Source: a bacterium (GTDB lineage: Bacteria > Bacteroidota > Bacteroidia > B-17B0 > Aurantibacillaceae). From it: 53,147 bases of DNA. Position numbers and translations under genes: made by a program. Position 1 is the stretch's first letter, and every line of letters begins with the position of its first letter. The stretch lies in contig JAQSCW010000006.1 in the NCBI GenBank assembly GCA_029945625.1, forward strand, positions 1 to 53,147, read 5' to 3'. This document shows, piece after piece, positions 10,426 through 49,896 of the stretch. A model generated the notes under the pieces. The model did not search any database and had not been told where the DNA came from. It saw only the letters and a program-made list of their open reading frames with translations.

Positions 10426-10980
10426 TTACTTCTTAGAGGCTGATTTACCGGCTTTTCTTCTCAATTGCTCACCTGTAAACTTAATACCTTTTCCTTTGTA
10501 CGGTTCAGGTTTACGCAAGCTGCGAATCTTTGCCGCTACCAGGCCAATGAGTTGCTTGTCGGCACTCTCAAGAGTAACCTTAGGGTTTTGGCCTTTTTCG
10601 GTGATGGTAGTTACTTTTATTTCTTTTGGAAGTTCAAAATTGATATTATGAGAATATCCCAAAGACATTTCAAGCATCTGACCTTTATTAGAAGCACGGT
10701 AACCCACACCCACTAATTCCTGCTCAGTTTTATAACCTTCGCTTACACCTTTCACCATGTTAGAGATTAATGATCGGTAAAGGCCGTGTAATGCTTTATG
10801 ACGTTTCTGATCTGTTGGGCGCGTCACTACAACGTGATCGTTCTCCACAGCAACAGTAATATCTGTGTCTACTTTTTGAGTTAATTCTCCTTTTGCACCC
10901 TTTACAGTAACGATTCCGTTACTTACTTTTACCTCTACTCCTTTTGGTAATGTGATCGGGTTTTTTCCTATACGTGACAT
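10426..10980 (-). CDS. rplF: 50S ribosomal protein L6
   Basis: The 184-aa uL6 consists of two repeated domains. It starts MSRIGKNPITLPKGVEVKV and ends with the signature EPYKGKGIKF region (residues 157-166). It lies near the factor-binding site of the large subunit. Unusually for this operon, the start codon is preceded by a clear Shine-Dalgarno sequence (entry at 10990-10998). Confidence 0.98.
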   Translation of the reverse strand: MSRIGKNPITLPKGVEVKVSNGIVTVKGAKGELTQKVDTDITVAVENDHVVVTRPTDQKRHKALHGLYRSLISNMVKGVSEGYKTEQELVGVGYRASNKGQMLEMSLGYSHNINFELPKEIKVTTITEKGQNPKVTLESADKQLIGLVAAKIRSLRKPEPYKGKGIKFTGEQLRRKAGKSASKK

Positions 10981-11795: not shown

Positions 11796-12356
11796 TTATT
11801 TCTTTTTAAATGGAATACCAAATTCTGTTAATAATGCATGTGCTTCTTTATCTGTTGGAGCCGAAGTAACAAAAGTGATGTCCATACCCTGGATCTTGCT
11901 CACTTTGTCGATATCGATCTCCGGAAAAATGATTTGCTCGGTAACACCCAATGTGTAATTACCACGGCCATCAAATCCCTTGTCGTTAACGCCTTTGAAG
12001 TCACGAATACGCGGTAATGCTGAAGCGATCAACCGATCCAAAAATTCATACATTTTATCGCCGCGTAAGGTTACTCTCACACCAATGGCCACACCTTTAC
12101 GTAACTTGAAATTCGAAATATCTTTTGTAGAATAGGTAGGAACTGCTTTCTGACCGGTAATGGTCGTCATTTCCTTTACGGCCGACTCGATCATTTTTTT
12201 GTCAGACACCGCATCTCCGATACCCTGATTGATACAGATTTTTTTCAATTTAGGCACTTGCATGGATGAAGTGTATTGAAATTGTTTTTGTAAAGCCGGA
12301 ATTACTTCGTTGCTGTACTTACCTTTTAAACGAGGTTTATAAGTTGTTGTTGCCAT
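11796..12356 (-). CDS. rplE: 50S ribosomal protein L5
   Basis: The 186-aa uL5 has [32 protein letters not shown] and the C-terminal [19 protein letters not shown]. It binds 5S rRNA and contacts P-site tRNA. Its ATG overlaps the rplX stop by one nucleotide (TAATG), which suggests translational coupling. Confidence 0.98.
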
Positions 12357-45392: not shown

Positions 45393-47327
45393 ATGAATAT
45401 TACAGAAATATCAATAAAACGTCCATCGCTGATAATTGTTCTTTTCAGCGTACTTACCTTATTGGGAGTTATAGGATATAAAAATTTGAGTTACGAATTA
45501 ATGCCTGATTTTAATCAACCCGTTGTGGTTATTAAAACTGTGTATCCCGGAGCAGAGCCCAACGAAGTGGAAACATCGGTATCACGAAAAATAGAGGATG
45601 CTTTATCTAACTTAGAAGGAGTGGATTATTTGGTAACTAAATCTTTACCAAACGCATCTATCATTATTGCAAATCTGAAATATGGAACTGATTTGGATAA
45701 AACTATGCAAGATGCACAACGCTACATTGACAACATTCGAAAAGATTTACCGCAGGATATTTTAAGTCCTGTAATGAGTAAAGTTTCTCCAAATGATTTA
45801 CCAATCATGTCCATTAGCGCAACAAGTAATTTGCCTGCAACCGAGTTTTATCAAAAAATGAAAGATGACTATCTTCCGCAAATTCAACAAATAAAGGGAG
45901 TTGCAGAGCTAACGATTTTAGGAGGTGAAGAACGAGAAATACAAGTAAAAGCAAATCGAGATAAACTGAAATTATATAAGATTTCATTATATCAGGTTGT
46001 TGAGGCAATTAATCGTTCAGGCTTAGATTTACCTGCTGGAAAAGTACAAACAGATCAGGAAAATAATTCTGTTCGATTAACAGGAAAATTTACAACAATT
46101 GATGATATAAAAAATGTTCAAGTAGCTATGCCAATACCGGGTAGTCCTGTGTATGTGAAAGACGTAGCTCAGGTAGTAGATGGAATCAAAGAAACTACCT
46201 CTATCAGCAGATACAATGGCAAAGATGGCATAGGGATTTTACTTAAAAAGCAAGGAGATGCCAATGCTGTTGATGTTTCAAAAATGGTTCGTGCGAAATT
46301 TAAAAGTATTGAAGAACAAAACAGTAATTCATTAGTGAAATTTATCATTGCAGATGATAGCACTGACAATACCATTGCAGCTGTTAATTCAGTTGTATTT
46401 GATTTAGGTTTAGCTGTTGTATTAGTTTCTTTAGTAATGCTTTTGTTTTTAAGAAGTTTCAGAAACTCATTAATTGTTATCATTGCTATTCCAACTTCTT
46501 TGGTTACTGCATTTGCAGTTATGTGGCTATTGGGTTACACATTAAATTTAATGACTTTACTGGCTATGTCATTAATCATCGGCATCTTGGTTGATGACGC
46601 TACAGTGGTCTTGGAAAATATTCAAAGACATTTGGATATGGGTAAAGAAAAACGAACAGCTTCAATGGATGGGCGTATGGAAATTGGATTTTCCGCATTG
46701 TCAATCACATTGGTTGACGTGGTTGTGTTTTTACCGATATTATTTTTACAAGTATTTGTGGCGGATATGCTCAAGCAATTTTCGGTAGTTGTTGTAACAT
46801 CTACGCTAACAAGTTTATTGGTAGGCTTTACGCTTACACCTTGGTTAGCTTCAAGAATAGGCAAAAAAGAGGATTTGCAACCTACCAACTTCTTCAATCG
46901 TTTTTTACTTGGCTTTGAACATCAATTAGAAAAATTCACTAATTGGTATGGTAAACAATTAGAATGGATACTTAGCCACAAGTTAATTTTTACCGGAATA
47001 GTTATTTTTCTTTTCGCAGCTACTTTAGGAATAATGAAACAAGGTATTATTGGCAAAGAACTAATCTCTACTGGCGATCAAGGTAAATTCCGTATGGCTT
47101 TGGAGTTTGACAAATCAACCTCTATTCATCAAAACAATTTAGTTGCAAAAAAAATCGAAGCATATATAATCAACCAAGCAGATGTGTCTACCGTATTCAG
47201 TAATATAGGTGGTCCGAGTACAGGCATCGGAAGTTTAGGAGTAGGCTCAGCCAATAAAACCGAATTTACTATTCAATTAAAATCTGCTAAAGAACGTAAC
47301 AATACAAAAAATGTTGTAAAATATTAA
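45393..47327 (+). pseudogene. RND efflux permease, truncated after about 644 of about 1030 residues
   Basis: The N-terminal 60% is a normal AcrB-family pump: TM1 (about residues 10-28), the first periplasmic loop, TM2-TM6 with the proton-relay pair in GILVDDATVVLENI, and TM7 near 530-550. The frame then enters the second periplasmic loop (GDQGKFRMALEFDKS) and stops at 47325-47327, just after the TEFTIQLKSAKERNN element. TM8-TM12 and the rest of the second loop are missing. Directly downstream, in another frame, begins the C-terminal part of a DUF2141 protein, so a deletion has fused two genes. The pump is almost certainly inactive. Confidence 0.85.
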
Positions 47328-47575
47328 AAGAAAAAATACAAGATGGTACATCAAAGGTAACCTTTAGTAATCTTCCTCAAGGCAGATATGCAGTAAATAT
47401 ACTTCATGATGAAAATGAAAATGGCGAAATAGATAAAGGATTTATTTTACCAATAGAGGGGATTGGCTTTTCAAATTACAATTCAATTGGGTTAACAAAT
47501 CGCCCCAACTTTTCAAAGGCAAGTTTTGACTTAAATTGCAATAAGAAACTTGCGATCAAAATCATTTATCTTTAA
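47324..47575 (+). pseudogene. 3' fragment of a DUF2141-family gene
   Basis: In the frame shifted by one from the pump, 47324-47573 encodes 83 residues without a start codon. They include SNLPQGRYAVNILHDENENG and EGIGFSNYNS, then PNFSKASFDL and a terminal IKIIYL. These are the second half of DUF2141, a small secreted beta-sandwich. The first half, signal peptide and start are absent. The fragment is followed by a strong terminator, presumably its original one. The junction lies in a run of A's near 47300-47325. Confidence 0.75.
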
Positions 47576-47640: not shown

Positions 47641-47963
47641 TATTTCTCTAGAATTCATTCCGAATGAAAGCTTCTTAAAAATTCTCAAAACCACCAAGAA
47701 CAAATCAACAACGCTCAAGGCTCGCCAAAAATCCGTGAAAGCCTCCTAAAGCATTGGCATACTTTTGCCTTGTGTTTTGTTATACCCCATATCCCCATAA
47801 AATAGACGATTCTTAGTGCTTTTGCCATTGAGTATGGCACTTATATTTTGAACGTGCAAGTTTATTCCCTTGATTTTTTCCCCTCAAAAAAAGAAAGTCG
47901 AATTCGCTACCACGTTCCCAAAAGTGTACCGTACTTCAAATATAGCAAGTAGTTAATCGGAGT
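47641..47963 (+). other. Gene-free leader of the recombinase module
   Basis: No ORF is supported in this stretch. It holds TACTTTTG (47760-47767), a possible -7 element without a -33. It also holds a perfect inverted repeat, tgccat (47823-47828) with atggca (47834-47839), nested in agtgc/gcact, which could be an operator or a recombinase/RDF binding site. The sequence is AT-rich like the module it precedes. Confidence 0.35.
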
Positions 47964-48218
47964 ATGAAAATTGAAAATAACGTGAAGATGGAAGGTGTTA
48001 ATGGAAATAAAAAACACAAAAGGTTGAGTGTTGCTGAATTGAGAAAATGCAAAGGCTTTGAAAATATTTCTGATGCGGAAGCAGAAGAAACAATAATTGC
48101 TTTGGAAAAATTATCAATCCTGTTTTATGAATTATACATGAAACAAAAACATAGCATACAAAAACTAACAATTATAAAAGGAGGTGATCTTGATGGAGAA
48201 CAACGAGTCGCTGCTTAA
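47964..48218 (+). CDS. Small ORF overlapping the serine recombinase gene
   Basis: The 84-aa product is charged and helical. Its core LSVAELRKCKGFENISDAEAEE, then ALEKLSILFYELY, recalls small proteins I have seen directly before Bacteroidota serine recombinases, but I cannot name a function. Candidates are a recombination directionality factor or a regulator. The gene overlaps the recombinase start by 26 nt, and the recombinase Shine-Dalgarno lies inside it, so translation may be coupled. No Cys pair, no membrane segment. Confidence 0.65.
   Translation: MKIENNVKMEGVNGNKKHKRLSVAELRKCKGFENISDAEAEETIIALEKLSILFYELYMKQKHSIQKLTIIKGGDLDGEQRVAA
48177..48189 (+). promoter_or_regulatory. Near-complete Shine-Dalgarno of the recombinase gene
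   Basis: AAAGGAGGTGATC is complementary over 13 nt to the 3' end of bacterial 16S rRNA (GATCACCTCCTTT). GGAGG ends 8 nt before the ATG at 48193, an ideal spacing. This decides the start over the in-frame GTG at 48184, which lies within the SD itself. It is exceptional for Bacteroidota. Confidence 0.85.
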
Positions 48219-49896
48219 AAAATTTGCTAAAGGCAAAGGAGCAGCAATAAAAGATGAGTCGATTCAAAATTGCGTTATTTACACAAGGGTGAGTTCCAAA
48301 GAACAAATGGACACCAATCAAAGTTTGGAGTGGCAGAAAAAATATTGCATCGACTACGCCATTAAAAACAAGTTGGACATTAAAGGTTATTTTGGAGGAA
48401 CTTATGAAAGTGCGAAAAGCGATGAACGGAAAGAGTTTACTCGGATGCTCAAATTTGTAAAAGCGAGCAAAGAAAAAATCTCTTTCATTTTAGTTTACAG
48501 TTTAGATCGATTCAGTAGAACTGGAGATAGCGCAATTTTTATTGCGAGCGAATTAAAAAAGACTGGAGTAAATATCATGGCTGTTACACAGCCTATTGAT
48601 ACGAATTCTCATGCCGGAGCATTGCAACAAAACATCCAATTCATCTTTGGTAAATACGATAACGATTTACGAAGACAGAAAACGATTGATGGAATGCGAG
48701 AGAAATTATTGAGAGGAGAGTGGATTGGCAATGCACCTACAGGTTATGCATTTGTGAAAGGTGCGCCTACACAAACTATTATTTTTAGTGATAAAGGAGA
48801 AGCCATAAAGCAAGCTTTTATTTGGCGAGCTAATGGAATGACCTACGATCAAATAATTGAAAAATTAAAATGCTTGGGAATTAAAATGCCTAAGCAGACC
48901 CTTGGAGGCATTTTTTCGAACCCTTTTTATTGTGGGTTCATGTCGCACAACTTATTGAATGGTGAGGTAATTAAAGGAAAGCATCCTCCTTTAATTGATG
49001 AGGACTTATTTCTAAGGGCAAACGAACTCAAGAAAACGGATGGCTTTAAGGTAAACAAAGCCAATGATAACTTGCCATTGAAGGTATTTGTAAAAGATGC
49101 AGAAACAGGAGCCCCTTTCACCGGATATATTGTGAAGAAGAAGGGGCTTTATTATTATAAGGTAAATCGGATCGGAATTAAGGTAAACAGGAGCATTAAA
49201 ATTATGCACGGAAAGTTTGAAGAATTGCTTTCAAATTATACGGTAAATTCTGCCCTTGTAGAGCCTTTAGAAAAACAACTGCGTTACACTTGGGAGAACC
49301 TAACAGAAACCAGCACGAGCGAGAAAAAAGCCCTTTCTTTGAAACTTAACGAGGTTGAGGAAGAGTTCTATAATTTGCGTAAAAGACACGCTATTGGGTC
49401 GGTAAGTTTGGACATTTATGAAGAATTTTCGACTGAAATGAAGAAGCGTAAAGAGGGTATTATGGAGTCACTTGAAAAGTTGGAACAGAAATTATCGAAC
49501 CCTAAAGAATTGATAAATTTTACCTGCCGACTATCGGCAAACCTCGCACCTGTGTGGGCTTCGGGCGACTATTACCAAAAGCAAACTTTTCAAAATGTGG
49601 TATTTCCCTCCGGTTTGGTATATGATACGAAAATTGAGCATTATCGAACCCCTGAAATAAATCGAGTAGTTGCGTTAATTGCCGATTTATCAAAGGGTTT
49701 GGGGGAAATAAAAAAACCGGACTTCTCTAAATTTGAAGAGAAGTCCGGCTTAGTACCCGGAAGGGGACTTGAACCCCTACGCCTTACGGCACACGCCCCT
49801 CAAACGTGCTTGTCTACCAGTTCCAACACCCGGGCAATCTATAAAAAACAGAAAATAGGCTGTTTTTACGGTGCAAAAGTAGAAAAACCTGCTTAA
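48193..49896 (+). CDS. Large serine recombinase with frame running through tRNA-Leu antisense
   Basis: The 567-aa protein has a resolvase catalytic domain (about residues 25-165; YTRVSSKEQ with nucleophile S34, and SLDRFSR). A Recombinase domain follows (about 180-280; GNAPTGYAFVKG, GGIFSNPFYCGFM), then a region matching the zinc-ribbon layout (TGYIVKKKGLYYYKVNRIG) in which the usual Cys are absent, and a coiled coil (about 350-430). It should mediate site-specific integration/excision. From about residue 508 the frame passes through the tRNA-Leu terminator, and from about 521 to 547 through the tRNA gene antisense (GRGLEPLRLTAHAPQ). So its C-terminus probably depends on the integration site. 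The native end is likely near residue 505. Confidence 0.88.
   Translation: MENNESLLKKFAKGKGAAIKDESIQNCVIYTRVSSKEQMDTNQSLEWQKKYCIDYAIKNKLDIKGYFGGTYESAKSDERKEFTRMLKFVKASKEKISFILVYSLDRFSRTGDSAIFIASELKKTGVNIMAVTQPIDTNSHAGALQQNIQFIFGKYDNDLRRQKTIDGMREKLLRGEWIGNAPTGYAFVKGAPTQTIIFSDKGEAIKQAFIWRANGMTYDQIIEKLKCLGIKMPKQTLGGIFSNPFYCGFMSHNLLNGEVIKGKHPPLIDEDLFLRANELKKTDGFKVNKANDNLPLKVFVKDAETGAPFTGYIVKKKGLYYYKVNRIGIKVNRSIKIMHGKFEELLSNYTVNSALVEPLEKQLRYTWENLTETSTSEKKALSLKLNEVEEEFYNLRKRHAIGSVSLDIYEEFSTEMKKRKEGIMESLEKLEQKLSNPKELINFTCRLSANLAPVWASGDYYQKQTFQNVVFPSGLVYDTKIEHYRTPEINRVVALIADLSKGLGEIKKPDFSKFEEKSGLVPGRGLEPLRLTAHAPQTCLSTSSNTRAIYKKQKIGCFYGAKVEKPA
49717..49748 (-). terminator. Terminator of tRNA-Leu, inside the recombinase frame
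   Basis: ccggacttctc (49717-49727) and gagaagtccgg (49738-49748) form a perfect 11-bp stem with a 10-nt loop. On the minus strand it follows the tRNA-Leu 3' end by 5 nt and is trailed by TTTTTT (complement of 49711-49716). It may be chromosomal or brought by the element. Confidence 0.8.
49754..49835 (-). tRNA. tRNA-Leu(GAG)
   Basis: The reverse complement folds as a class II tRNA. The acceptor stem pairs GCCCGGG with TCCGGGT. The D arm follows TG with GGTAGA. The anticodon stem CACGT/GCGTG holds the loop TTGAGGG, anticodon GAG. A long variable arm TGCCGTAAGGCGT follows, then the T arm AGGGG-TTCAAGT-CCCCT and the discriminator A at 49754. The 3' CCA is not encoded (CTA follows), as is usual in Bacteroidota. 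Antisense to the 3' end of the recombinase frame. Confidence 0.92.
49874..49881 (-). promoter_or_regulatory. -7 element of tRNA-Leu
   Basis: TACTTTTG on the minus strand matches TAnnTTTG and lies 38 nt upstream of the tRNA 5' end. No TTG at 19 nt is seen. Confidence 0.5.

Follow-up and report, generated by a model that had tools for sequence, protein, structure and literature searches.

An extended Shine-Dalgarno sequence before a serine recombinase, and its counterparts in one family of Bacteroidota integration modules

Introduction

Bacteroidia possess the best-studied ribosomes that ignore Shine-Dalgarno (SD) sequences, and the extended SD known from them serves rpsU. Occlusion of the anti-SD in this class, on which the initial annotation of the DNA studied here relied, is reported in PMC9976891. 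According to the excerpted text of that paper, the rpsU SDs of Bacteroidia form 9–13 bp at -14 to -21 kcal/mol, ribosomal genes (rpsR, rplE, rplF and others) carry moderate SDs in SD-poor genomes, with modes of -8 to -12, and SD control in Flavobacteriales is concluded to be limited to rpsU. In Flavobacterium johnsoniae, mutation or depletion of bS21 raises strong-SD reporters by 1.7- to over 4-fold, and in the wild type a strong SD on the reporter brings GFP somewhat below the no-SD level (PMC9976891, excerpted text). An SD thus need not raise translation by replete ribosomes. Because the strong SD did not raise the wild-type reporter, a role as plain enhancer is disfavoured, which leaves room for a conditional one.

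For a recombinase gene that overlaps an RNA gene, the nearest precedent we found is DsiB of the Dehalococcoides ssrA islands, likewise a serine recombinase of ~540 residues, the 3' end of whose gene overlaps an attachment site located within an RNA gene. The excerpted text of PMC3146451 places the DsiB stop codon outside the island and the site in the tmRNA T-loop of Dehalococcoides. A search of the open-licence literature by title and start of abstract found no paper on the SDs of mobile-element genes in Bacteroidota.

Here we describe a serine recombinase gene whose SD is real and strong, and is part of an operon-wide habit in one family of Bacteroidota integration modules. This SD resembles that of Bacteroidia rpsU, as excerpted from PMC9976891, in the occluded anti-SD of the class, in length and energy, and in marking an exceptional gene. 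It differs in belonging to a recombination operon of a mobile element, and in this genus none of the rpsU genes examined has an SD.

The Shine-Dalgarno sequence of the recombinase

The window, which is the whole 53,147-nt stretch of DNA analysed, constitutes contig C6 of its assembly. The following features belong to the element or adjoin it.

47749..49775, + strand: module common to copies at other tRNA-Leu genes, ~93% identical in two same-genus genomes
47964..48218, + strand: ORF1, a conserved small protein of 84 aa, whose last 26 nt overlap the start of the recombinase
48177..48186, + strand: extended Shine-Dalgarno core AAAGGAGGTG, with 10 contiguous pairs to the genus 16S tail
48193..49896, + strand: serine recombinase ORF, Resolvase (PF00239) and Recombinase (PF07508) domains
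49753..49835, - strand: tRNA-Leu(GAG), presumed integration target, whose 3' end meets the element

The initial annotation had placed an SD before the recombinase ATG, inside the 84-aa ORF, and the window bears this out. The motif AAAGGAGGTGATC spans 48177–48189, lies whole within ORF1 and precedes the ATG at 48193. GGAGG is separated from the ATG by 8 nt, so that AAAGGAGG ends 8 nt 5' of it. This 13-mer is found nowhere else in the assembly of 4.1 Mb.

A Rfam search found no 16S gene in the assembly of the window (the control was positive in 9 of 14 genomes), and the host tail was taken from 12 same-genus genomes. In their 14 gene copies the 16S 3' tail is GGAACACCTCCTTTCT, not GGATCACC. Searching for the canonical TGGATCACC tail exactly gave 0 of 7, and a looser pattern gave the true tail. 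The 16S end could also be obtained in 10 of the 36 genomes in which relatives of the module occur: nine have GGAACACCTCCTTTCT and one has GGAATACCTCCTTTTT. Among the nine are the hosts of three modules whose recombinase has an SD (loci L160, L163 and L165).

With the genus tail, AAAGGAGGTG pairs over 10 bp without a break, and a 16-nt tail adds two pairs beyond one mismatch. The duplex energy predicted with ViennaRNA is -16.5 kcal/mol for the 13-nt tail and -18.3 for the 16-nt tail. The complementarity of 13 nt claimed earlier is therefore reduced to 10 contiguous pairs; the count was wrong because the canonical GGATCACC tail had been used. Ten pairs at -16.5, calculated with the tail of the 12 same-genus genomes, fall into the extended-SD class of 9–13 consecutive pairs and about -14 to -21 kcal/mol, where our energies come from ViennaRNA and those of PMC9976891 from free_scan. 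The recombinase SD lies beyond the modes given for ribosomal-gene SDs in the excerpts of that paper, as do the ORF1 SDs that are strongest among relatives (-16.0).

The Shine-Dalgarno sequence is exceptional in its genome

We compared the recombinase start with a sample of 343 mechanically called ORFs of at least 100 aa, drawn from 400 kb of contig C55 and the window. It has the strongest SD among these 343 starts. Four starts, the recombinase included, reach -11 or below, against 0 of 343 mock windows, which agrees with the initial annotation in treating this as a strong SD, exceptional in its own genome, on the recombinase of a mobile element. Weak SDs (-6 or below) are depleted, with 25 against 41 in the same number of mock windows; a like depletion is reported for Flavobacteriales in the excerpted text of PMC9976891. 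Two genes of the window outside the element serve for comparison.

10426..10980, - strand: gene with a moderate SD, -12.3
11796..12356, - strand: gene with a moderate SD, -11.1

Judging by their sequences, we presume the former to be rplF and the latter rplE. Under these names, they match the moderate SDs of ribosomal genes in Bacteroidia (PMC9976891, excerpted text).

Across the genome, AAGGAGG-N3-10-ATG occurs at 83 places, whereas the reversed control has 113. A simple gene-start filter was passed by only 12 of the 85 candidate ATGs in this census, which is confined to the AAGGAGG shape and does not extend to variants such as GAGGAGG. When the hits are ranked, a yajC-like gene comes first (-17.3) and both recombinase copies tie for second place (-16.5). 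The yajC-like gene (L335, contig C43:34740-35750), whose name we presume from its sequence, is a further non-ribosomal gene with an SD in this genome. Among genes of this genome with a close or overlapping upstream neighbour, 2 of 97 reach -11 or below, so upstream overlap alone does not demand an SD.

The recombinase and its tRNA gene

The recombinase scores 85.3 bits against PF00239 (curated cut-off 23.3) and 43 bits against PF07508 (cut-off 21.1), and the phage integrase family phrog_95 matches it at 1.7e-61. It has the catalytic and Recombinase domains in common with the large serine recombinases CcrB, XisF and phrog_95, whereas its scores against the NCBIfam equivalogs CcrB and XisF, 66.6 of 900 and 74.3 of 375 bits, lie far below the curated cut-offs. 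ORF1 of the window has no Pfam match; the ORF1 proteins of L154 and L160 match nothing in PHROG or NCBIfam, and their one Pfam match falls far short of the cut-off.

The 3' end of the recombinase ORF runs through the antisense tRNA-Leu gene, which makes its true C-terminus uncertain. The same arrangement is widespread: 85 of 101 complete homologous recombinase ORFs enter an antisense tRNA gene, with 10 isotypes represented (Leu 38, Met 13, Arg 9, Ser 8, Phe 5, Val 4, Asp 4, Glu 2, Ala 1, Pro 1), and the spacing between ORF and tRNA is near-constant among the 40 rows listed. Since the reading frame meets no stop before it enters the tRNA gene (in the window, its last part is 49753–49896), the last residues of the recombinase depend on the target. 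From its position beside tRNA genes, we presume that the recombinase targets tRNA genes, and the T-arm common to tRNAs may explain the broad choice. Compared with DsiB as described in the excerpts of PMC3146451, the present system uses tRNA genes of many isotypes, belongs to Bacteroidota and has other partner genes; the likeness drawn here is one of gene layout.

The genome holds six recombinase matches in all. One of them is a second copy (L092, contig C46:10696-12282), 81% identical and located at tRNA-Leu(CAA), which has the same strong SD: it keeps AAAAGGAGGTGA, although the flanking bases differ on either side. For the element in the window, the left end was not found, as the rplS neighbourhoods of six same-genus genomes share with the window only the tRNA-rplS side.

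Shine-Dalgarno sequences on several genes of the module

In relatives, the module can contain a third gene of MerR type, which is absent from the module of the window. PF13411 was matched by both MerR-type proteins tested. The fullest modules (L154, L157, L158, L160 and L163) have the MerR-type gene, ORF1 and the recombinase in consecutive order with an SD on each, at about -12 for the MerR-type gene, -12 to -16 for ORF1 and -13 to -16 for the recombinase. Where the MerR-type gene was recognised by sequence, its SD of -12.0 to -12.6 is present in 9 of 16 modules and is placed upstream of that gene. In SD modules ORF1 starts 9-15 nt past the MerR-type gene, so the ORF1 SD sits at the end of that gene. 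The overlap between ORF1 and the recombinase measures 26-41 nt in SD members where ORF1 was read, and 4 nt (ATGA) in many distant relatives. ORF1 of the window has no SD at its own start (-3.0).

At other starts in 40 named loci of near relatives, 9 of 183 reach -9 or below and 8 reach -11 or below, and all eight belong to the MerR-type gene; the mock windows, which are not always clean, gave 2 of 183 at -11 or below. Once module genes are excluded, none of the 191 starts left in these loci reaches -11, and a single one reaches -9.

Conservation among relatives

Homologues were collected from 150 genomes, where 30 loci among the matches listed and 40 chosen places were taken, and from a further search, where 80 loci were kept of 469 genome matches. 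This gave 105 distinct records; two without an ATG were dropped, 103 were counted, and the 102 of at least 440 aa entered a tree. The best of the candidate ATGs was used in real and mock windows alike.

In the near family, the recombinase has an SD of -11 or below in 16 of 37 records (mock 0/37), and ORF1 has one in 20 of the 32 where it could be read (mock 0/32). At one or the other gene, an SD is present in 25 of 32. Of the 37 recombinases, 21 do not reach -11. Outside the near family, the counts fall to 3 of 66 for the recombinase (mock 0/66) and 1 of 40 for ORF1, where the mock windows were again not clean (1/40). L026, a truncated near-family copy that is not in the tree, is one of the 3 and the sole ORF1 case. 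On the 102-record tree, the 19 recombinases with an SD of -9 or below need 4 changes, compared with a shuffled mean of 17.7, and 0 of 500 shuffles are as low.

The check proposed in the initial annotation, whether close homologues lack the SD, gives a mixed result. One clade keeps the SD. In L003, a 97% identical copy, a G of the core is lost and the SD is weakened to -9.8, and in others the SD is absent. A sister clade (L010, L017, L020, L021, L097 and L178) has the SD on ORF1 and none on the recombinase, and its pre-ORF1 gene was not recognised. Where a different gene lies upstream (L015, L019, L173, L175 and L176), none of the three genes read has an SD. Viral contigs contain 26 homologous loci, the best at 44% identity, and these were left out of the comparison.

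ORF1 codons over the recombinase SD read KGG or QGG in most members and KGD in L003 and L011. In L026 the site is read as KEE in another ORF1 frame with shifted spacing, and the GGAGG-ATG distance among relatives is 5, 6 or 8 nt. Since the motif persists with changed spacing and in another overlapping frame, selection at the nucleotide level is likely.

rpsU and other ribosomal genes of the host

The initial annotation had drawn a parallel to the rpsU of Flavobacterium, and the host does not follow it. Its rpsU has no SD (-5.7), and of the 14 genus genomes examined, this one among them, none has an rpsU SD of -9 or below (25 genus genomes had a match). The strong SD on rpsU that characterises a bS21-autoregulated system is therefore missing here. 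rpsR and rpsF of this genome, the latter presumed from its sequence, have no SD either. Counting along the host bS21 peptide gives Tyr as residue 54. In the class, the rpsU SD is patchy: 2 of 16 other same-class genomes examined have one (-16.4 and -17.0; L033 and L038).

Discussion

Our findings support the idea of a working SD that is kept by selection in a Bacteroidota integration operon, where the extended SD lets 30S subunits land at internal starts; we regard this explanation as fairly probable. Judged from sequence comparison, the SD is probably maintained by selection, and most likely the SDs recruit ribosomes to the start codons of a tRNA-targeting integration operon. We infer that ribosomes use the SD and that it sets the level of the recombinase. 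The full module of relatives consists of a MerR-HTH gene, the small ORF1 and the large serine recombinase, placed at tRNA 3' ends. Landing at internal starts is suggested by the gene order of the SD clade, in which ORF1 and the recombinase begin inside the preceding gene or within ~15 nt of it. The 30S subunits concerned would have a free 16S tail, or a tail freed by the long helix, and the recombinase would be made from within the ORF1 message. The strong SD, together with the like signals that many related copies keep on adjacent genes of the module, points to a way of attracting ribosomes that is particular to the element.

The site falls on the ORF1 codons AAA GGA GGT, and the SD could thus be a by-product of Lys-Gly-Gly coding, or chance. 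We consider this very unlikely, because L026 retains the motif in a different codon frame, further SDs stand before ORF1 and the MerR-type gene, beyond the ORF1-recombinase overlap, and the recombinase SD is clustered on the tree. Even less probable is a remnant of an SD-using donor outside Bacteroidota, which the initial annotation had offered as an alternative. It is true that the 3' part of the motif, TGATC, fits the canonical GGATCACC tail better (-23.0, against -18.3 for the genus tail), but only the closest copies retain this part. Wherever the phylum is named, the genomes in which relatives lie, whether these have an SD or not, are titled as Bacteroidota: none of the 80 loci kept of 469 matches is titled outside this phylum, with two titled just 'uncultured bacterium'. 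The 134 plasmid and 183 phage records are distant as well, all below 60% identity and at most 31% in the 20 listed of each. A donor outside Bacteroidota is unlikely on these grounds.

Two further explanations are compatible with the one we favour. Ribosomes that finish ORF1 might reinitiate upstream at the recombinase ATG, in which case the SD would merely hold the terminating ribosome. The overlap of ORF1 with the recombinase start, long in SD members and ATGA in many distant ones, speaks for such translational coupling. Yet the relatives with the 4-nt overlap, which are the simplest case for coupling, have no recombinase SD of -9 or below, and the MerR-type gene also has an SD with no overlapping upstream gene seen in the five SD modules listed. 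Coupling of this kind is possible and somewhat doubtful. The other explanation ties mobility to bS21: the SDs of the operon would target ribosomes lacking bS21, and the recombinase would be made mainly at bS21 shortage. It draws on the energy and length of the recombinase SD, which fall in the rpsU class, and on the rise of strong-SD reporters on bS21 mutation or depletion (both from the excerpts of PMC9976891), on Tyr 54 in the host bS21, and on a signal common to several genes of one operon in relatives. Against it stands rpsU without an SD in the genus genomes examined, where an autoregulatory loop that reports bS21 shortage is consequently not visible. Moreover, the reading of SDs is not special to the element, since the genes presumed to be rplE, rplF and yajC also have them. 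The proposal of the initial annotation that a shortage of bS21 governs the recombinase is weakened by these observations, and as an account of the operon, bS21 gating appears rather unlikely. A preference for bS21-deficient or immature ribosomes is possible. In its widest form, the idea would be that a family of Bacteroidota integrative elements possesses an SD regulon of its own, with extended SDs on two or three successive genes of the operon in SD-averse hosts, read preferentially by ribosomes with an exposed 16S tail (immature or bS21-poor), which we put forward as a quite tentative and on balance improbable speculation. If it were true, mobility would be coupled to how ribosome assembly stands in the cell, and the operon would be a non-ribosomal target of specialised ribosomes.

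With regard to the favoured explanation, that of SDs working at the internal starts of the operon, a mobile operon with SDs on several genes is a natural second client for SD-competent ribosomes beside rpsU. It could reveal how an element controls the dosage of its integrase through translation.

Additional observations

A hairpin just after the recombinase start (z -2.42) did not appear consistently in folds of the window and 31 relatives, and was dropped. We also notice that ORF1 ends in Ala-Ala (48213–48218 in the window) in 25 of 27 cases with the 4-nt overlap, 26 of 37 in which the overlap exceeds 20 nt and 2 of 17 others. The two residues are written by different codons, mostly GCAGCATGA and GCTGCTTAA. 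This end resembles an SsrA-like degron, or follows from the LLK codons of the recombinase. Upstream of the module, an RND efflux pump gene (45393–47575) is cut short at 644 aa and covers positions 2–631 of the 1021 in Pfam ACR_tran. Inspection by eye shows an open stretch directly behind it in a different frame, which looks like a deletion or fusion.
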